Numbered from the stretch's first letter, positions 40,679 through 52,399 are shown. The stretch: DNA of 64,000 nucleotides from Geomonas sp. RF6 (GCF_021044625.1 NZ_CP087999.1:4609001-4673000), one strand, 5' to 3'. The notes: generated from the letters alone by a model not told the origin. Made by a program: numbers and translations.

Positions 40679-41584
40679 ATGATCGAAGGGATTTTCGTAG
40701 AAGGACTCATTTACGGGATCATGGTACTCGGGGTGTTCATCTCCTTCCGGGTGCTCGACTTCCCTGACCTCACGGTGGACGGTTCCTTTCCGCTGGGGGC
40801 TGCACTGATGGCGACCTGCATCCTCTCCGGGATAAACCTCTGGGTTGCTCTGTTGATCGCCTTTGCCGGCGGTGTCATCGCCGGGTACGCCACCGCCCTC
40901 ATCCACAACCACCTGAAGGTGCCGAACCTGCTGGCCGGCATCCTCACCATGACGATGCTCTACTCGGTGAACATCAGGGTTCTCGGCAACCGCGCCAACG
41001 TCCCGCTCCTGAACCAGGACACCGTCCTCACCTTCGTTGCCGCGAGGCTCGAGGGAATCGTCCCCGAAGAGTACCAGGTCCTCGTCTTCTTCGTGATCGT
41101 GGCGATCATCATCAAGGTGCTGCTCGACATGTTCTTCCGCACCGACCTCGGTCTCACCATCGGGGCGATGGGGAACAACGAGCAGATGGTTGTCTCCCAG
41201 GGGGTCGACCCGAAGACGCTGAAGGCAATCGGCCTTGGTCTCTCCAACGGTCTCGTGGCCCTCTCAGGCGCCTTCGCCGCGCAGTACTTAGGCTTTGCCG
41301 ACGTCGGTCTCGGCCAGGGGATCATCATCTCCGGCCTCGCCTCCGTCATGATCGGCGAGTTCCTGATCATGAAGAGCAACCGCATCTCGGTGCTGACCCT
41401 CTGCGCGCTCCTGGGCTCGATCTGCTTCCACGGAGTCCTCTACGTCGGGCGCTACTACGGCTATCTCGTGAAGATGACACCGAACGACCTGAACCTCATA
41501 AAGGGTATCCTGATCATCATCCTCCTTGTCGCGACCCAGAGCAGGAAACTGAAGAAACCGTCCAGGGGGGTGGTGAGCAAATGA
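40679..41584 (+). CDS. ABC transporter permease (ABC_sub_bind-associated)
   Basis: This 301-residue inner-membrane protein has about eight to nine hydrophobic helices and resembles LivH-type permeases. It carries the motifs VLDFPDLTVDGSFPLGAAL near the N-terminus and the GNNEQMVVSQGVDPKTLKA loop that contacts the ATPase. It is probably a homodimer, since only one permease gene is present. Its stop overlaps the ATPase start as ATGA. A short hairpin between the binding protein and this gene (gcgacggcgcc...ggcgcctgtcgc) may lower the downstream expression. Confidence 0.92.
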   Translation: MIEGIFVEGLIYGIMVLGVFISFRVLDFPDLTVDGSFPLGAALMATCILSGINLWVALLIAFAGGVIAGYATALIHNHLKVPNLLAGILTMTMLYSVNIRVLGNRANVPLLNQDTVLTFVAARLEGIVPEEYQVLVFFVIVAIIIKVLLDMFFRTDLGLTIGAMGNNEQMVVSQGVDPKTLKAIGLGLSNGLVALSGAFAAQYLGFADVGLGQGIIISGLASVMIGEFLIMKSNRISVLTLCALLGSICFHGVLYVGRYYGYLVKMTPNDLNLIKGILIIILLVATQSRKLKKPSRGVVSK

Positions 41585-42378
41585 TCGAGCTTAAAGACGT
41601 ATCGATGATCTTCAACCAGGGGACGGTGAACGAAAACCAGGCCATCTCCAACATCAACCTGAGGGTGAAAGAAGGGGACTTCATCACCGTTATCGGCTCC
41701 AACGGAGCAGGGAAGTCGACGCTTTTCAACCTGATCGCCGGGACGATAACGCCGACCTTCGGCTCCATCCACCTGAACAACCGGAACGTGACGCGGGAGC
41801 CGGAGTACAAGCGCGCGAAGTACATCGGCCGCATCTTTCAGAATCCGTTGCTGGGGACCGCCGGCAACATGAGCCTGGAAGACAACATGATGATCACCTA
41901 CCGCAAGGGGTTCAAGTGGCTGAAGCGCAGCCTCAACCACGCCAAGAGGGAGCTCTTCCGCTCCGAGCTCGTCCAGCTCAGGATGGGGCTTGAGGACCGC
42001 ATGAAGGAGAACCTGGCCATGTTCTCCGGCGGTCAGAGACAGGCGCTGACCCTCCTGATGGTGGTCCTTTCGAAGCCGGACCTGATTCTCCTGGACGAGC
42101 ACACCGCGGCGCTCGACCCGAAGAACGCGGAGATCGTCCTGGAACTGACGAACAAGTTCATCGAGGAATACAAGCTGACCGCGATGATGATCACCCACAA
42201 CATGACCCACGCCATCGAGTTTGGAAACAGGCTCCTCATGATGGACAAGGGGGAAATCATCTTCGACGTCGAGGGGCAGGCGAAAAAGGAGCTCACCGTC
42301 GAGCGGCTCATCGAGAAGTTCCACGAAATCCGCCACAAGAGCTTCGAGAACGACCGGACCTTACTCTCGGAGGACTGA
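41581..42378 (+). CDS. ABC transporter ATP-binding protein
   Basis: This 265-residue nucleotide-binding subunit powers the transporter of the two preceding genes. The Walker A is GSNGAGKST, the signature is FSGGQRQALTL, the Walker B is LILLDEHTAALDP and the switch His lies in MITHNMTHA. It overlaps the permease gene by 4 bp. A strong terminator follows. The unit has one binding protein, one permease and one ATPase. Confidence 0.96.
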   Translation: MIELKDVSMIFNQGTVNENQAISNINLRVKEGDFITVIGSNGAGKSTLFNLIAGTITPTFGSIHLNNRNVTREPEYKRAKYIGRIFQNPLLGTAGNMSLEDNMMITYRKGFKWLKRSLNHAKRELFRSELVQLRMGLEDRMKENLAMFSGGQRQALTLLMVVLSKPDLILLDEHTAALDPKNAEIVLELTNKFIEEYKLTAMMITHNMTHAIEFGNRLLMMDKGEIIFDVEGQAKKELTVERLIEKFHEIRHKSFENDRTLLSED

Positions 42379-44358: not shown

Positions 44359-44685
44359 TTAGCGCAGCACAAGACCAAGGAGCCAGTACAGCGCCATCCC
44401 TACGATGACGGTCCCGGCAAGGGAGCGGGTCTTGAGGGCAAAGAAGAGGGTCGGAATCGCCGCCAGGAGATCGGGGCGCGACGGATCGAAGGTGCGCGGC
44501 GTGCCGGTGGTTACCAGCACCGGCGCCACAAGGGAACTCAGTATGGCGACCGGCACGAGGTCGAGCCAGTCGGTGAGCCAGCGGGGGAGTTGCCTGCGGG
44601 AAAGGAGGGTCAGCGGGAGCATGCGCGGGAGATACGTGGCGAGCCCCATCCCCACGATCAGCAGTACGTAATGAATATCAGGCAT
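44359..44685 (-). CDS. azlD: AzlD-family branched-chain amino acid exporter subunit
   Basis: This 108-residue membrane protein has three to four helices (e.g. YVLLIVGMGLATYLPRMLP). It matches AzlD/YgaH, the small partner of AzlC/YgaZ in export of branched-chain amino acids or analogues such as methionine. The start overlaps the azlC stop by 8 bp. It is the last gene of the six-gene minus-strand operon. Confidence 0.9.
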   Translation of the reverse strand: MPDIHYVLLIVGMGLATYLPRMLPLTLLSRRQLPRWLTDWLDLVPVAILSSLVAPVLVTTGTPRTFDPSRPDLLAAIPTLFFALKTRSLAGTVIVGMALYWLLGLVLR

Positions 44686-45382
44686 GCACCTTCCTTTTTC
44701 TTGAATGTCTCTTTATCAGAAAGCCGATAGTCGCGGCGGCGCAGGAGGCCGCGATTATGTGTCCGTTTCCCTGGAAGATCAGGGAGAAGGATACGGAGAG
44801 GACGGCGGCGACGACTGCAGTGATGATGTGCAGCCTCTCCCGGAACTGGAAGGTCAGCAGGCAGATGAACATGCCGGTCAGGGCGTAGTCGATGCCGAAG
44901 GCGCCGGGGGGGACGAGGTTACCGATGTAGACGCCGGCGACGGTGCTGACAACCCAGCAGGCATTCGCGGCCTGGTTCATGGTTAGGGCACGCCACCGGT
45001 CCCACCCTTCCCCCCTGAAGCGCGCCATGTTGACGGCGAAGCTTTCGTCGGTGACCCCGTAGGCAAAGAGAGCCAGAAAGCGCCTGCTGATCCCGGGAAA
45101 ATGCACGGACATGGCGGAGCTCATAAGAAGATGCCTCAGGTTCACCACGAAGGTCGTGGCGACGATGGTGACTGCCGAGACCCCGCTGCCGATCATGGCG
45201 ACGGCGATGAATTGTGAACCGCCGGCAAAGACGAGCACGGACATCAAAAGGACATGCAGCGGGCCGAGCCCCGCCTTCTGGGCCAGCACCCCGAAGGAGA
45301 GCCCGATGGGGAGATAGCCGAGACAGACAGGCCAGGCGGCGCCAAGGCCGTCCCGCACGACGCAGTGACGCTCACTGACCAA
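44678..45382 (-). CDS. azlC: AzlC-family branched-chain amino acid exporter subunit
   Basis: This is the large exporter subunit, about 234 residues and about seven helices. It has the family motifs YLPIGLSFGVLAQKAGLGP, FAGGSQFIAVAM and NLRHLLMSSA. AzlCD/YgaZH systems pump out valine-type amino acids. I favour the TTG at 45382, which follows GGAGGGG and overlaps the upstream stop by 11 bp; a GTG at 45412 would add ten residues. It is coupled to eamA upstream and azlD downstream. Confidence 0.9.
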   Translation of the reverse strand: MVSERHCVVRDGLGAAWPVCLGYLPIGLSFGVLAQKAGLGPLHVLLMSVLVFAGGSQFIAVAMIGSGVSAVTIVATTFVVNLRHLLMSSAMSVHFPGISRRFLALFAYGVTDESFAVNMARFRGEGWDRWRALTMNQAANACWVVSTVAGVYIGNLVPPGAFGIDYALTGMFICLLTFQFRERLHIITAVVAAVLSVSFSLIFQGNGHIIAASCAAATIGFLIKRHSRKRKVHA

Positions 45383-46274
45383 GATTCCCCTCCACAGTCG
45401 CGACAGGGTCACCGAAGTTCAGGTTCAGAAAGACTGCCCCGATGATGATCGACATACCCACGACCTGTGACAGGACGATCTCCTCCCGCAGAAAGAGGGT
45501 GATGAAGACGAGCGACAGAACCGGAGTGAGGAGCGCAAAGTTCGAACTGTGGCTTGTCCTGGTAAGCTGCAGGGCGCGGTTCCAGAGGATGAAGGCGAGC
45601 GCTGTGGGGAAGACGCCGATGTAGAGGAGGATCAGGAGATCGACGGCCCCGATGCGCCAGGTGAAGCCGTAGAAGGGCATAAGGAGAAGAAGAAAGAGGA
45701 GCCCGAAAAGGTTGAACAGGAACATCCCGATACCGACATGGAAGCGGGCATGCTTGATGAGGACGCAAAAGAGCGCAAAGGTAAAGGCGCAGGCAAGGGA
45801 GAGAAGGACCCCCGAGCTCATCTCGAACCCGCGCAGGCTCCCGCCGGAGACGAGAATGAAGACTCCCATGAAGCCGAGGAGCACAAAGGCGACCGAGCGC
45901 AGCGAGGAGTGCTCGCGGTACACCAGGCGGGCCAGCACGATCATCATGAGGGGATACGTATAGGTGAGGATGACGACCTGGGCGGCGGGCAGGTGCTCGT
46001 ACGACTTGATGCACAGAAGCTGCTGCACACCGAGCCCGATGACGCCGGTGAGGATGAAAAAGAGCGGCATCCTGCGAAATTCGGCGACGACCCCGCCCGC
46101 CTCCCCCGTGCGCAAAAGGTTCAGAAAGAGCGCCAGGACCGCGAAGCTCCCCATGTACACCGTGACGCTGTAACCGTCGAGGCGGGAGACACTGAGCTTG
46201 AAGGTCGTTCCGAGGGTGGCGAAAAGGAGCACGGCCAGGAGCGCGTAGATGCTCCCCTTGGTGGAGTCTTTCAT
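45372..46274 (-). CDS. EamA-family (DMT) transporter
   Basis: This 300-residue inner-membrane exporter has ten helices in two EamA repeats. The first starts YALLAVLLFATLGTTFKLSV and the second VLLSLACAFTFALFCVLI. DMT exporters handle amino acids and other small metabolites; the substrate is not determined by sequence. It overlaps rarD by 4 bp (ATGA) and azlC by 11 bp, so it belongs to the MocR-divergent operon. Confidence 0.92.
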   Translation of the reverse strand: MKDSTKGSIYALLAVLLFATLGTTFKLSVSRLDGYSVTVYMGSFAVLALFLNLLRTGEAGGVVAEFRRMPLFFILTGVIGLGVQQLLCIKSYEHLPAAQVVILTYTYPLMMIVLARLVYREHSSLRSVAFVLLGFMGVFILVSGGSLRGFEMSSGVLLSLACAFTFALFCVLIKHARFHVGIGMFLFNLFGLLFLLLLMPFYGFTWRIGAVDLLILLYIGVFPTALAFILWNRALQLTRTSHSSNFALLTPVLSLVFITLFLREEIVLSQVVGMSIIIGAVFLNLNFGDPVATVEGNLGQ

Positions 46275-47224
46275 TCCTGGGGCGCCTCCGCGGGTACGTT
46301 ACGGAGGACGATGTCGCGCCGGGCAGTAGAGATAGCCGACCACGAGTAAAGCGCGAGCCCGCTCCAGATGCAGAGAAACGATGCGAGGTTCGCAGCAGTG
46401 AAGGGCTCGTGGTAAAGCCAGACCGCCTGCAGGAAGTGGAGGCTCGGAGTGATGTACTGCAGAAAGCCCATGGTCATGAGCCTCAGGCGGCGCGCGGCGG
46501 CAGCAAAGAAAAGGAGCGGGACGGCCGTCACCACCCCGCAAAGGATGAGGACGCCGGTGTCGGCTGCAGGTCCCGCGAGAAAGGCGCCGCGCCCGGTGAG
46601 CCCCAGATTAACCAGAAGAACCAGCGCCATCGGCCCCGCGAGGAAGGTCTCCATGGAGAGCCCCACCAGCGAGTCGACGGCCACTGTCTTGCGCAGAAGG
46701 CCGTACAGCCCAAAGGTGATGGCGAGGAGAATGGCGATCCAGGGGACTGCGCCGAGGGTGACTGCAGAAACTGCGACACCGACGACCGCAAGGAGAAGGC
46801 TCACCGCCTGCAAGCGCTGCATCCGCTCGCGCAGGAGCAAAAAGCCGAGCAGGACGTTGACCAGGGGATTCATGAAGTAGCCGAGACTCGACTGCAGCAC
46901 CTCCCCCTTCCCTATCGCATAGATGAAGATAAGCCAGTTGGCGGCGATGAGAACCGTGCTGCAGCAGAGCGTGGCAAAGGTCTTCCACACGCGAAACGCG
47001 CTGCGGATCTCACCCCAGCGACCGCTGACCGTCACCAGTACGGCCAGAAAGAGCATCGACCAGACGATCCGGTGCGCCACCACCTCCAGCGGCGGGATGT
47101 GGGAAACGAGCTTGAAAAAGAGCGGAAAGAAGCCCCACACGAGATATGCCGCAAGGCCGCAGAGTACGCCGCGTCTGCTTTCCTGCGCAGCGGTCAAGCC
47201 GGCCTCAGTTGCACCGGTACTCAT
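46271..47224 (-). CDS. rarD: RarD-type EamA-family transporter
   Basis: This 317-residue protein of the RarD subfamily of DMT transporters has the start GVLCGLAAYLVWGFFPLFFK and motif ANWLIFIYAIGKGEVLQSSLGYFMNPL, written here in two parts for recognition: ANWLIFIYA and QSSLGYFMNPL. About ten helices are present. The ATG at 47224 overlaps the ybaK stop as ATGA and has AGGGAGAG upstream. RarD proteins are linked to chloramphenicol sensitivity in E. coli strains, but the physiological substrate is unknown. Confidence 0.92.
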   Translation of the reverse strand: MSTGATEAGLTAAQESRRGVLCGLAAYLVWGFFPLFFKLVSHIPPLEVVAHRIVWSMLFLAVLVTVSGRWGEIRSAFRVWKTFATLCCSTVLIAANWLIFIYAIGKGEVLQSSLGYFMNPLVNVLLGFLLLRERMQRLQAVSLLLAVVGVAVSAVTLGAVPWIAILLAITFGLYGLLRKTVAVDSLVGLSMETFLAGPMALVLLVNLGLTGRGAFLAGPAADTGVLILCGVVTAVPLLFFAAAARRLRLMTMGFLQYITPSLHFLQAVWLYHEPFTAANLASFLCIWSGLALYSWSAISTARRDIVLRNVPAEAPQE

Positions 47225-47709
47225 GCACTCTCCCTGATAGCGGCGATTTGACCGTCTGTTATGACTGAGAGCTCCTGCGGCGTGAGCCGAAAGAGGGCCG
47301 CCGGCGTCCCCGCCGCTGCCCACAATTCCTGGTACTGCAGCAGGTCCTCATCTATTACCGTCGGAAGCTTTTCCGGGTGCCCGAGGGGGGCGACCCCGCC
47401 GATGGCGAAGCCGGTCTTCTCACGCACGAAAGCAGCATTTGCCTTTGCGATCGGCTCTCCGGCTATTTCGGCGAGGCGCGCCTCTGCGACGCGGTTGCGA
47501 CCGCTGGCAAGGACAAAGAGAGGGTTGCCGCTGACCGTCCCGCGGAAAAGGAGGGATTTTACAATCTGCCCCACATCGCAGCCGACAACCTGCGCCGCCT
47601 CTTCCGCGCTGCGGGTACTCTCGGAGCGCTCCTCCACGCGGCAGGAAAGCCCGAGAGCCGTCAGGGCATCCTGCACGCGCTGCGCGCTCCTGCTCAGTTG
47701 TGCTTCCAT
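47221..47709 (-). CDS. YbaK/EbsC-type aminoacyl-tRNA deacylase
   Basis: This 162-residue trans-editing domain belongs to the family that hydrolyses mischarged tRNA, such as Cys-tRNA(Pro) or Ala-tRNA(Pro). The conserved lysine lies in GQIVKSLLF and the GGVAPLGHP motif is characteristic of the YbaK/ProX group. The ATG at 47709 has GGAG five bases upstream. The gene is translationally coupled to rarD and sits in an operon of exporters, which suggests a shared purpose in handling an unwanted amino acid. Confidence 0.9.
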   Translation of the reverse strand: MEAQLSRSAQRVQDALTALGLSCRVEERSESTRSAEEAAQVVGCDVGQIVKSLLFRGTVSGNPLFVLASGRNRVAEARLAEIAGEPIAKANAAFVREKTGFAIGGVAPLGHPEKLPTVIDEDLLQYQELWAAAGTPAALFRLTPQELSVITDGQIAAIRESA

Positions 47710-47761
47710 ATCAACTCCAAAAGAGATCAAATTGCAATTGGCGGCGGGGCCTGGCGCTGAG

Positions 47762-48031
47762 CTAGGCGGATCCCACCAGGTGCCACACCTCGGCAGGTTT
47801 ACGGTGCGGCATCGCTGCCGCGGCGATACATTTTAACCGGGCATCCCCCCATGCTTCCACGACGATGTGTTCACGGGCGGTTACCTCGATCTGTTCCCCC
47901 GGTGTGAGTACGTAGTCACACGGGTCCCCGCTCCGCGTCAGGTAGAGACATCCCGCCAGACAGCGCAGGGCCCTCACTTCCTTGTTTCCGTCAATCCCCA
48001 GTACAGCGCCATCATCGAGTCCGATTTCCAT
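47762..48031 (-). CDS. DUF2917-family protein
   Basis: This 89-residue protein has the pattern LRCLAGCLYLTRSGDPCDYVLTPGE, shown here only as LYLTRSGDPCDYVL, followed by HIVVEAWGDARL. It resembles a small beta-sandwich or cupin-like fold. DUF2917 has no assigned function. It is the first gene of the operon ending in azlCD and diverges from the MocR gene across 190 bp. A 52-bp gap separates it from the YbaK gene. Confidence 0.85.
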   Translation of the reverse strand: MEIGLDDGAVLGIDGNKEVRALRCLAGCLYLTRSGDPCDYVLTPGEQIEVTAREHIVVEAWGDARLKCIAAAAMPHRKPAEVWHLVGSA

Positions 48032-48133
48032 GACTCCCCCTTCCGCTTCACCGAAGCGGCTATTCCTTTGATGATGGATACTATAAAGTACCTTGCGAAA
48101 AATAACAGATACATTAAATTACAATTGTCACCA

Positions 48134-48186
48134 TAACAGTTTGACAATCGCGACACTGTACCCTATTTTTATTCGCGCAACTGTTA
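48134..48186 (+). promoter_or_regulatory. MocR promoter with flanking inverted repeat
   Basis: The promoter is TTGACA (48141-48146), a 17-bp spacer and TATTTT (48164-48169). The inverted pair TAACAGTT (48134-48141) and AACTGTTA (48179-48186) brackets it. This placement suits autoregulation and divergent control of the exporter operon by the MocR protein. Confidence 0.7.
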
Positions 48187-48223
48187 CTGTCGCAAGACTT
48201 GCCGACTCGATAGGATGTGGCCC

Positions 48224-49669
48224 ATGGAAAAGAACTGCAGCGTCAACGGCTCGAAAACGCCCCTTTATGAAGAAGTCGCCGGGCAGGTCGCCCACCTCAT
48301 CGAAGAGGGCACCTTCGGCCCCGGCTCGCGGATACCCTCGGTGCGGGCCTTGAGCCGTCAGCTCAACGTGAGCATCAACACGGTGATGGAGGCGTACGGG
48401 CTGCTGGAGGACCGCAGCCTCATCGAGGCACGTCCGCAGTCAGGGTACTACGTGCTGGCGCGTCTCGGGAACATCCCTGCCGAGCCAGGGGTCTCGTCCC
48501 CGCGCTCGCAGCCGACGAAGGTGAGCATCAAGGAGCTCTCCAACATGATCATGCGCGACATGCGGGACACCTCCCTCGTCCCGCTCGGCGCGGCGATCCC
48601 CAATCCCGAGCACCTCCCGGTGGACAGGCTGAACCGCATGCTCTCCACCGAGGCGCGCCGCTACCGGGAGCAGAGCGTTTCCTACGAGAGCCCTCCCGGT
48701 TGCGAGAAGCTGCGGGTGCAGGTCGCCCGCCGTCTCGTCTCCACCGGCTGCACCCTCACCCCGGACCAGATCGTCACCACCTGCGGCTGCATGGAAGCGG
48801 TCAATCTCGCGCTCCTTGCCGTCTGCCGCCCCGGTGACACCGTCGCCATCGAGTCGCCGAGCTACTACAACTTCCTGCAGGCACTGGAGCTTTACGGCCT
48901 GAAGGCGCTGGAGATACCGACCCATCCGCGGGACGGGATGAGGATCGACACCCTGCGCTACGCCATGGAGCACAACAAGATCAGCGCCTGCCTCGTGGTG
49001 AGCAACTTCTCCAACCCGTTGGGGAGTCTCATGCCGGACGACAAAAAAAAGGAGCTTGTGGAGCTCCTGGCCGCGCACGACGTCCCTCTCATCGAGGACG
49101 ACCTGAACGGCGACCTCAGCTTCTCGCACGAGCGGCCGCGGGTGGCGAAGTCGTACGACAAGAAGGGGCTGGTGATGCTCTGCTCCTCCTTTTCCAAGAC
49201 GCTCGCACCGGGGTACCGGGTCGGCTGGATCGCGCCGGGGCGCTTTCAGGGGGAGATCGAGAGACTGAAGGGGATCACCACGATAGCCGACGCCACCCCG
49301 CCGCAACTGGCGATAGCGGAGTTTCTGGCAAATGGCGGCTACGACCATCACCTGAGGACCCTGAGGCGGATCCACGCCCGGCAGACCTCGCTCATGGCGC
49401 AGGCGGTCGGACGCTACTTCCCTGAAGGGACGAAGATCACCAATCCTGCAGGGGGGTTTGTGCTGTGGGTGGAGTTTCCGGAATACGTCGACTCCCTCGT
49501 CCTGTACGAGCAGGCGCTGAAGGCGGGTATCACCATCGCGCCGGGGCCGGTCTTCTCGGCGATGCAGAAGTACCGCAACTGCATTCGCCTCAATGCCGGA
49601 TACTGGTCCGATAGGGTGGAACGGGCGATAGAAACGCTCGGGAAATTTGCCGCAGCGATGGAGAGTTGA
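48224..49669 (+). CDS. MocR-family transcriptional regulator (GntR HTH plus aminotransferase domain)
   Basis: This 481-residue regulator has an N-terminal winged helix (IPSVRALSRQLNVSINTVMEAY, recognisable as PSVRALSRQLNVSINTV) and a C-terminal PLP-binding aminotransferase-I domain. The PLP lysine is in SSFSKTLAPGYRVGW, with the ring-contacting Asp region in VSNFSNPLG. MocR proteins sense PLP or an amino-acid-PLP adduct. The ATG at 48224 is favoured by AGGA eight bases upstream; an ATG at 48215 has none. It diverges from the DUF2917-YbaK-RarD-EamA-AzlCD operon, its most likely target. Confidence 0.93.
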   Translation: MEKNCSVNGSKTPLYEEVAGQVAHLIEEGTFGPGSRIPSVRALSRQLNVSINTVMEAYGLLEDRSLIEARPQSGYYVLARLGNIPAEPGVSSPRSQPTKVSIKELSNMIMRDMRDTSLVPLGAAIPNPEHLPVDRLNRMLSTEARRYREQSVSYESPPGCEKLRVQVARRLVSTGCTLTPDQIVTTCGCMEAVNLALLAVCRPGDTVAIESPSYYNFLQALELYGLKALEIPTHPRDGMRIDTLRYAMEHNKISACLVVSNFSNPLGSLMPDDKKKELVELLAAHDVPLIEDDLNGDLSFSHERPRVAKSYDKKGLVMLCSSFSKTLAPGYRVGWIAPGRFQGEIERLKGITTIADATPPQLAIAEFLANGGYDHHLRTLRRIHARQTSLMAQAVGRYFPEGTKITNPAGGFVLWVEFPEYVDSLVLYEQALKAGITIAPGPVFSAMQKYRNCIRLNAGYWSDRVERAIETLGKFAAAMES

Positions 49670-50146: not shown

Positions 50147-50752
50147 TCAGTGGATCCCCAGGAAACCCCGTATCCCGGTAAAGACCAGCTGAGCGGCGAT
50201 CGCGGCGAGCATGAGGCCGGTGAGCTTGCTCATGATCGTTATCCCCTTCCTCCCGATCACATGCTCTATCGCCTGCGCGCAGTACAGAATTATCCCGATG
50301 CACAACACCGCTGCGGCAAGCGCACCGCATCCCGCCGTCACCTGCCAGTACTCCTGCAGATCAGCACCCATGACCATCAAGGCACCGGTCGTCGCCGGCC
50401 CCACCGTGATCGGGATCGCCAGCGGCACGACTGAAATGTCGTCCTGCCGCTCTCCAGGCGCGACCGCCTCCCCCTGCACCATCTGCACGGCCGAAAGGAA
50501 AAGGAGGGCGCCGGCGCCGATGCGGAAAGCGTCGAGGGTGATGCCGAAGAGGGTGAAGAGATGGTTGCCGAAGAAATAGAGAATGAAACAGGCGAGCAAG
50601 ACGGCGAAGGTGACGCGGACCGCCAGCCTGCGCCTCCCCTCCCCTCCCATCTCCTGGGTCATCGCCAGAAATACGGAGAGGACGAAGAAGGGGGTGAGGA
50701 GGAAGAAGAACTTGATCCACACGCTGATGAAGAAGTTTACGTACATGTTCAT
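50147..50752 (-). CDS. MarC-family integral membrane protein
   Basis: This 201-residue protein has six predicted helices. It carries the family segment VPLAIPITVGPATTGALMV, shown in part as PLAIPITVGPATTGA. MarC/YchE proteins were once linked to antibiotic resistance and some members to amino-acid export; the role remains uncertain. The start overlaps the preceding transporter stop by 4 bp, so it is the last gene of the livHMGF operon. Confidence 0.9.
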   Translation of the reverse strand: MNMYVNFFISVWIKFFFLLTPFFVLSVFLAMTQEMGGEGRRRLAVRVTFAVLLACFILYFFGNHLFTLFGITLDAFRIGAGALLFLSAVQMVQGEAVAPGERQDDISVVPLAIPITVGPATTGALMVMGADLQEYWQVTAGCGALAAAVLCIGIILYCAQAIEHVIGRKGITIMSKLTGLMLAAIAAQLVFTGIRGFLGIH

Positions 50753-51690
50753 GATGCCTCCGTCGTGGCGGAGGAGGCTCCAGTCACCGCCGCACTCTTT
50801 GAGTAGCGGGACGAGACCCTGGTAAAGATGAAGAGGCCGGCAAAGATCAGCGCCCCGCCGAGAAGCTGGCGCGCGGTCGGGGTCTCATGGAGGAAGATCG
50901 AGGCCCAAAGGATTGCTCCGAGCGGCTCGCCGAGGATGCTGACGGAGACGACCGACGCCTGCACGTAGCGTAGCGCCCAGTTGAAGGTCGTGTGGCCAAG
51001 GACTGTGCACACGCCCGCCAGTGCAAGAACGAGTACCCAGTCTGCAGCGGGATACGGGTAAAAAGGGATCTTCGCAAAGAGGGTCGCCGCGACCAGCACG
51101 ACGGAGCTCACGCCGTAGGTCACGAAGGTATACCCGGAGAGCTCCACGCTCCCCCGCAGCCGCCGCCCGATCAGGATGTAGCCGGAGACGAAGATTGCTG
51201 CGGCAAATGCCAGCACGTCCCCCCAGAAGGCATCCATCCCGATCTTGAAATCCCCCGCCCCGATGACGAAGCTGCCGGAGAGGGCGAGTATCCCGCCAAA
51301 GACGGCCATGCGCGGCACCTTCTCTCCAAAGAAGAGCCACGAGCCGAGGAGCACGAAGACGGGCTGGGTGGTGACGATGACGACGGAGCTGGCGACGCTT
51401 GTGTATTTGAGCGAGGTGAACCAGGTGACGAAGTGGAGCGCCAGGAAGGCGCCGCTTCCGGCGCACAGGAGGAGCTGCCGGCGATTCATCGCTCGCACGC
51501 CGCGAAGGCGCCCGGCAACAGTGGTGGGCGCCAGGAGAAGGAAGGTGAAAAGGAGCCGGTAGCTCGCGATAATGAGGGGGGGCGCCGTGCACAGCCGCAC
51601 GAAGAGCGCCGAGAAGGAGACGGCAAAAACCCCTACCAGGACTGCAAGGTAGGGGTTCACCAGCGGTTTATGTACGGTTGCCTCAGGCAC
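50749..51690 (-). CDS. EamA-family (DMT) transporter
   Basis: This is a 313-residue, ten-helix DMT exporter. The first EamA repeat contains GVFAVSFSALFVRLCTAPPL and the second starts GDVLAFAAAIFVSGYIL. The GTG at 51690 has GGAG at proper spacing and lies one base from the livF stop. Finding a DMT exporter cotranscribed with a branched-chain amino acid importer is notable. Confidence 0.9.
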   Translation of the reverse strand: MPEATVHKPLVNPYLAVLVGVFAVSFSALFVRLCTAPPLIIASYRLLFTFLLLAPTTVAGRLRGVRAMNRRQLLLCAGSGAFLALHFVTWFTSLKYTSVASSVVIVTTQPVFVLLGSWLFFGEKVPRMAVFGGILALSGSFVIGAGDFKIGMDAFWGDVLAFAAAIFVSGYILIGRRLRGSVELSGYTFVTYGVSSVVLVAATLFAKIPFYPYPAADWVLVLALAGVCTVLGHTTFNWALRYVQASVVSVSILGEPLGAILWASIFLHETPTARQLLGGALIFAGLFIFTRVSSRYSKSAAVTGASSATTEAS

Positions 51691-51691
51691 C

Positions 51692-52399
51692 CTATTCTCC
51701 AAGGTAAGCCTTGCGCACCTCGGGATTAGCTGCCAGCTCCTTGGCGTCACCTTTCAGGACGACCTCGCCCGTCTCGAGGACGTAGGCGCGGTTGGCGATG
51801 GAGAGCGCCATGTGGGCGTTCTGCTCCACCAGCATGATCGTCGTCCCGGTCTTGTTGATCTCGCCGATGATCTCGAAGATCTTCTCCACCAGCATCGGAG
51901 CAAGCCCCATGGAGGGCTCGTCCAGGAGGAGGAGCTTCGGGCTGGTCATCAGGGCGCGCCCCATGGCGAGCATCTGCTGCTCCCCGCCGGAGAGGGTCTT
52001 CGCGAGCTGCTTCTTGCGCTCGGCAAGGCGGGGGAAGAGCGAAAAGGCCCGCTCGATCCCGTCCTGCATCATCTTCTTGTCGCTCTTGGAATAGGCACCC
52101 ATCTCCAGGTTCTCCAGAACGCTCATCTTGGAGAAGACGCGACGCCCTTCCGGAACCTGGCAGATCCCCATCTTCACGATCTCGTGGGGGGGAACCTGGG
52201 TAATATCTTTTCCGTTATAGGAGATCTTGCCGGCGGCCGCCGGGACGATCCCCGAGATGGTGTTGAGAATGGTGGTCTTCCCGGCGCCGTTGGCACCGAT
52301 CAGCGCTACGATCTCACCCTGCTTCACTTCGCAGTTGACACCTTTGAGGGCCTTGATCGCCTTGTAATTTACCGAGAGTTGTTCAACGACGAGCATCAT
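51692..52399 (-). CDS. livF: Branched-chain amino acid ABC transporter ATPase LivF
   Basis: This is a 235-residue nucleotide-binding subunit. The Walker A is GANGAGKTT, the signature TLSGGEQQMLAMGRAL and the Walker B LLLLDEPSMGL. The switch region is MLVEQNAH, and the C-terminus NPEVRKAYLGE is typical of LivF. It pairs with LivG on the LivHM permease. Specificity (Leu/Ile/Val or another hydrophobic ligand) depends on the binding protein, which is not in this operon. Confidence 0.95.
   Translation of the reverse strand: MMLVVEQLSVNYKAIKALKGVNCEVKQGEIVALIGANGAGKTTILNTISGIVPAAAGKISYNGKDITQVPPHEIVKMGICQVPEGRRVFSKMSVLENLEMGAYSKSDKKMMQDGIERAFSLFPRLAERKKQLAKTLSGGEQQMLAMGRALMTSPKLLLLDEPSMGLAPMLVEKIFEIIGEINKTGTTIMLVEQNAHMALSIANRAYVLETGEVVLKGDAKELAANPEVRKAYLGE

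Follow-up and report, generated by a model that had tools for sequence, protein, structure and literature searches.

The window analysed here, a stretch of 64,000 nucleotides of Geomonas sp. RF6 (GCF_021044625.1 NZ_CP087999.1:4609001-4673000), carries a MocR-type regulator gene on the plus strand that diverges from six minus-strand genes for a DUF2917 protein, a tRNA deacylase, the transporters RarD and EamA, and the exporter subunits AzlC and AzlD. Comparison across genomes indicates that the conserved unit is MocR together with DUF2917, not the exporter set, and that MocR very probably controls DUF2917 through a conserved five-box operator. The best explanation of the whole, a MocR switch with DUF2917 as an exporter partner and an operon extended in this lineage, has a somewhat better than even chance of being correct.

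The pairing was surveyed in 248 Desulfuromonadia genomes with the DUF2917 profile and the window MocR as queries. The MocR clade was defined as genes with at least 53% identity to the window MocR, giving 111 members; 34 others were less similar. DUF2917 adjoins 72 of the 111 clade members, always divergently (72/72), and none of the 34 MocRs outside the clade. The distance between the two domains is nearly always about 170-300 bp, and a clade MocR is present in 90 of the 93 genomes having DUF2917. The pairing appears to be largely inherited, since it needs 14 changes on a tree of 184 MocRs compared with 62 in shuffles. Named genomes of Verrucomicrobiota, Elusimicrobiota and other Desulfobacterota, as well as a Nitrospirota metagenome-assembled genome, also have the pair. 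Three settings of DUF2917 were seen among the first 58 relatives: as the divergent neighbour of MocR, as the gene immediately downstream of a GlxA-type regulator, and as an orphan. The Burkholderiales DUF2917 genes mostly diverge from LysR-type and other MocR regulators. The initial annotation had read the block as a MocR-controlled defence joining tRNA editing with amino-acid export and had proposed a co-occurrence check; this check upheld the link between DUF2917 and MocR, but not the exporter and editing genes as a conserved unit. The expectation that DUF2917 would be tied to MocR or exporters holds by half, because the gene is also found with regulators of the GlxA and LysR types, in many cases with no exporter close by.

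The window genome has a second DUF2917 gene (L031:6989-7273; C1:4777000), directly downstream of a GlxA-type regulator and without the MocR operator, which was not found at any of the GlxA-linked copies. In loci L041 and L280 the divergent neighbour of this GlxA-DUF2917 pair is a LysE/ArgO-type exporter gene, and in Acidovorax (L246) a tandem pair of DUF2917 genes adjoins a LysR-type regulator. A tblastn search of plasmids with two DUF2917 queries gave no match.

Alignment of the intergenic regions of 55 loci identified five boxes (ACAGATACA, TTGTnnCC, ACAGTT, ACTGTaCC, and AACTGTnnCTG), which in the window span 48105-48189, between MocR and DUF2917. Read on the DUF2917 strand, the conserved box 1 is CTGTATCTGT and lies 20 nt upstream of a conserved -10 element, TAnnnT. 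Activation of DUF2917 combined with autorepression of mocR is the likely design judged from the promoter layout, since box 1 occupies the -35 place of the DUF2917 promoter, as in activator-dependent promoters, and box 4 lies between the TTGACA and TATTTT of the putative mocR promoter. The 248 genomes were also searched for a 21-base operator pattern with up to three mismatches, with the reversed pattern as control. Of the 107 sites, 67 are at DUF2917 with MocR, 16 at DUF2917 apart from MocR, 13 at MocR without DUF2917, and 11 elsewhere. All 11 sites elsewhere have three mismatches and the control gave about 10 matches, so this search found only chance-level sites for regulon members beyond DUF2917 and mocR. 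Every site with 0-2 mismatches adjoins DUF2917, MocR, or both, and 14 of these sites belong to DUF2917 genes apart from MocR. The operator is present at 65 of the 72 MocR-linked DUF2917 genes; 14 of the 16 DUF2917-only sites are 64-71 bp from the DUF2917 domain, and in one genus the orphan DUF2917 genes keep the operator at a constant distance with MocR elsewhere in the genome. Because unlinked DUF2917 genes keep the operator, control by MocR, which the initial annotation had suggested, is strongly supported apart from adjacency.

The regulator has an N-terminal GntR-type winged helix-turn-helix (PF00392, 59 bits) and a C-terminal aminotransferase class I/II domain (PF00155, 100 bits). Lys328, the pyridoxal 5'-phosphate (PLP) lysine, Asp295, and Arg458 are invariant in the clade, and Lys328 is kept in 14 diverse members; invariance at the PLP lysine and ligand-binding arginine positions argues for the PLP-type sensing proposed initially. 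The five conserved ACTGT/TTGT boxes agree with the motif rules for MocR-type operators, which have repeated TGT-core boxes (PMC5320631). The closest NCBIfam model is PdxR (NF052282), but the score of 246 bits is below the equivalog cut-off of 320, and among the NCBIfam matches shown, the window MocR reaches no named MocR subfamily cut-off. Like GabR, PdxR, and TauR, it combines a GntR helix-turn-helix with an aminotransferase domain, has a divergent target and repeated TGT-type boxes, and shows a promoter layout resembling that of an activator and autorepressor; unlike them, its target would be DUF2917, through a five-box operator.

Some clade members and relatives have other partners. In one Geobacter-like genus (L067, L070, L073, L088, L090), a clade MocR without DUF2917 is divergent from an aldehyde:ferredoxin oxidoreductase gene, and the operator sites upstream of mocR are kept in at least two genomes. 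A different small, divergently encoded protein (~95 aa) takes the place of DUF2917 just upstream of cyanobacterial MocR relatives (L208, L213), and a DUF2917-free MocR subgroup (L132, L143, L149, L151) has a divergent gene of ~90 aa, which in L149 resembles a carboxymuconolactone-decarboxylase/AhpD-type protein.

Structure prediction gives DUF2917 the fold of a small cupin barrel. The AlphaFold2 model is an eight-stranded barrel (pLDDT 87.6), and the closest solved folds by Foldseek are small cupins (E 5.5e-4, TM ~0.67), such as 1YHF and PpnP (7EYM). Unlike these two, DUF2917 does not have the metal-binding His motif and instead has G27, W/Y30, T32, and D39 invariant or nearly so. The PDB also gave sequence matches to designed Pizza proteins; these are matches between short repeats and were discounted. 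In four Myxococcota (Sorangium, Polyangium, and two Archangium) an N-terminal DUF2917 is fused to EamA, with both domains above Pfam cut-offs. All four fusion genes diverge from a MocR of the clade and have the operator in front, and these MocRs form one branch of the MocR tree; few members of the phylum carry such a fusion. With DUF2917 and EamA as separate genes, the order MocR<>DUF2917-EamA was seen at 11 loci of Desulfuromonadia, and a Burkholderiales genome has MocR<>DUF2917-LysE-EamA. These fusions and gene orders point to an exporter role; action of DUF2917 on exporters is given a little less than an even chance. The fusions and the predicted fold also favour the accessory part that had been suggested for the protein. 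A separate hint comes from Geobacter sulfurreducens ACLHF, in which the DUF2917 gene GSU3506 is the most up-regulated (17-fold) and the RarD gene GSU0769 the third most up-regulated (6-fold) (PMC6520446).

The second gene of the block had been called YbaK-type, but among solved INS-superfamily proteins (natural chains) it is nearer to 2CX5 (146 bits) than to APE2540 (67) or YbaK 1DBU (43), and a YbaK identity was rejected at 58.7 bits against the TIGR00011 cut-off of 153. The 2CX5 structure (TTHA1699) is listed as ProXp-x, an editor of tRNA charged with 2-aminobutyrate (PMC11295145). With ProXp-x as the closest solved structure, of a family that deacylates 2-aminobutyryl-tRNA, the idea of editing against a non-protein amino acid gains support from the sequence. 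Unlike the 2CX5 comparison case, the window gene appears to be encoded in an operon with exporters, and it joins MocR/DUF2917 in five loci only.

The adjacent AzlC and AzlD genes have the two Pfam families of an AzlCD exporter; the azaleucine-resistance equivalog TIGR00346 was not reached (91.6 bits compared with 332), and membership of the same Pfam family does not imply the substrate. The six-gene layout, overlaps, and divergent MocR described in the initial annotation were borne out by Pfam and coordinates (Table 1). All seven genes were named with Pfam, above curated cut-offs. The deacylase ATG at 47709 leaves a gap of ~52 bp to DUF2917; the following overlaps are 4 bp for deacylase/RarD (47221-47224), 4 bp for RarD/EamA (46271-46274), 11 bp for EamA/AzlC if AzlC starts at TTG 45382, which is preceded by GGAGGGG (41 bp with GTG 45412), and 8 bp for AzlC/AzlD (44678-44685). 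The whole block recurs in two relatives (L034 and L043); L064 has the block without EamA, and at a fifth locus (L037) similar genes lie on both sides of MocR.

Table 1. Genes, operator boxes, and putative promoter elements in the window
Feature	Position	Strand	Remarks
AzlD, small subunit	44359..44685	-	PF05437, 96 bits
AzlC, large subunit of AzlCD-type amino-acid exporter	44678..45382	-	PF03591, 145 bits
EamA-family (DMT) transporter	45372..46274	-	PF00892, 112 bits
RarD (DMT exporter family)	46271..47224	-	TIGR00688, 216 bits, over cut-off
INS-superfamily tRNA deacylase, ProXp-x-like	47221..47709	-	PF04073
DUF2917 protein, first operon gene	47762..48031	-	PF11142, 48.9 bits; predicted cupin barrel
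Putative DUF2917 -10	48080..48085	-	TATAGT; fixed distance to box 1 in 55 loci
Operator box 1	48105..48113	+	ACAGATACA
Operator box 2	48125..48132	+	TTGTCACC
Operator box 3	48136..48141	+	ACAGTT
Putative mocR promoter	48141..48169	+	TTGACA-N17-TATTTT; matches consensus only; 0.7 chance matches expected in scanned region
Operator box 4	48155..48163	+	ACTGTACCC; within spacer of putative mocR promoter
Operator box 5	48179..48189	+	AACTGTTACTG
MocR, GntR winged helix-turn-helix and fold-type-I aminotransferase domain	48215..49669	+	Pfam GntR, Aminotran_1_2

Beyond MocR, EamA and MarC genes on the minus strand (50147-51750, 4 bp overlap) are followed by branched-chain-type ABC genes, and MarC-EamA is again near MocR in L064. 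Near the block on its other side, an ABC permease and ATPase pair (40679-42378) is possibly an amino-acid importer; the same pair is found again near DUF2917 in L050 and L058, where a substrate-binding gene precedes it.

In the mechanism proposed, PLP-binding MocR would bind the five-box operator and, when an amino-acid-type ligand is present, turn on the DUF2917 promoter and hold down its own. The primary target would be DUF2917, as a small cytosolic cupin-fold protein that most likely serves amino-acid exporters as a partner for ligand sensing or gating, a separate subunit here and fused to the exporter in some other lineages. In the window lineage the DUF2917 transcript would be extended by the ProXp-x-like deacylase, RarD, EamA, and AzlCD, and one signal would lead both to export of a neutral amino acid that is in surplus or non-protein and to hydrolysis of tRNA mischarged with it. 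The operon is probably an amino-acid relief system. Exporters of the AzlCD and EamA types in Bacillus relieve toxic amino acids (PMC11005379), and this together with the ProXp-x match makes a neutral amino acid, perhaps a non-protein one, the favoured substrate; the leading candidate, put forward tentatively, is 2-aminobutyrate. A more specific version, that DUF2917 is a metal-free cupin ligand sensor gating or specifying DMT, AzlCD, or LysE exporters, with the window operon as a defence against 2-aminobutyrate-like amino acids, is possible rather than probable. The same doubt attaches to its corollary that MocR or other regulators have the sensor made when needed, through a dedicated operator, and that it works in cis in the Myxococcota, in trans in other lineages.

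In Desulfuromonadia, 24 of 134 AzlC genes have a clade MocR no more than 5 kb away, where ~0.2 would be expected by chance (an estimate). These AzlCD pairs occur in four families and at least three different arrangements, with AzlCD after MocR, before MocR, or within the DUF2917 operon. Exporters are nevertheless a frequent but optional extension of MocR/DUF2917, because, counted per MocR sequence cluster (E<1e-6), they are found within 3 kb in 8/24 clusters with DUF2917 and in 4/15 without. At E<1e-10 exporters had seemed specific to MocR loci with DUF2917 (38/70 compared with 3/42), but not at E<1e-6 (38/70 compared with 16/42), since a DMT gene near MocR in one genus scores weakly; the claim of specificity was dropped. 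The cluster counts weigh against an exporter-centred mechanism, as do several other observations. Of 18 GlxA-linked DUF2917 genes, a setting that includes the second copy of the window genome, only 2 have an exporter; exporters that lie outside the transcription unit of DUF2917 or mocR showed no further operator; the full operon is confined to very few, closely related genomes; and the cupin metal-binding His is absent, with no His conserved in 129 non-redundant DUF2917 members. Many cupin-fold proteins likewise do not have a metal-binding His/Glu motif. The detoxification reading of the initial annotation is plausible and has been sharpened, but holds only for a few genomes, where the operon is a lineage-specific extension.

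If DUF2917 does not act on exporters, it may be a small ligand sensor that modulates the adjacent MocR, GlxA-, or LysR-type regulators, which is possible but less likely. A gene for a regulator of one of these types is beside DUF2917 in most loci examined, across Desulfobacterota, Burkholderiales, and Verrucomicrobiota, and the optional presence of exporters fits as well. However, the fusions found are to EamA only and none is to a regulator, DUF2917 genes that have moved away from MocR keep the operator, and a divergent, operator-controlled placement fits a regulated target as well.

It is rather unlikely that the exporters and the ProXp-x gene are chance neighbours transcribed by read-through from the DUF2917 promoter, with a MocR/DUF2917 function unrelated to export. 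While this would explain why the full operon occurs in three genomes only, plus one partial, and why many MocR/DUF2917 loci have other neighbours (DctP, aldehyde dehydrogenase, and threonine aldolase-like enzymes), it does not sit well with AzlCD beside clade MocR in several families and arrangements, the repeated EamA adjacency and fusion, or the overlapping start and stop codons. Less likely still is that the system handles vitamin B6 or PLP-derived reactive compounds, with MocR sensing PLP like PdxR and the exporters removing B6 vitamers. PdxR is the closest model and PdxQ regulons include DMT and LysE transporters (PMC5320631), but the MocR score falls short of the PdxR cut-off, no B6 synthesis or salvage gene was recognised among recurrent neighbours, and both ProXp-x and AzlCD speak for amino acids instead.

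Earlier work has described MocR regulons that include DMT or LysE transporters (PMC5320631) and has linked other MocR groups to membrane proteins (PMC4944035). The window resembles the PdxQ regulons in having a MocR with DMT/LysE-type exporters, but differs in having DUF2917 and a ProXp-x-like deacylase, with no PLP-metabolic genes seen. In Bacillus subtilis the AzlCD and EamA exporters are normally silent, and each is turned on against toxic amino acids by a regulator dedicated to it (PMC11005379). The AzlB-AzlCD and AerA-AexA (EamA) systems are similar to the window in pairing such exporters with a dedicated regulator, but are two separate systems, with AzlB and the AraC-type AerA, whereas the window would have one MocR operon with tRNA editing and DUF2917. 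In the open-access literature searched, DUF2917 is mentioned in one paper, as a transcript, and PF11142 was not found; DUF2917 as a MocR partner was not found either, although supplementary tables were outside the search and an unnamed gene in an earlier regulon table is possible.

For DUF2917, these results provide a first testable role: through the conserved operator it is the target best predicted for a MocR clade of wide occurrence, and the EamA fusion is a first mechanistic handle on the family. The window operon would be a compact natural design in which sensing, export, and tRNA proofreading are combined against a misincorporated amino acid.

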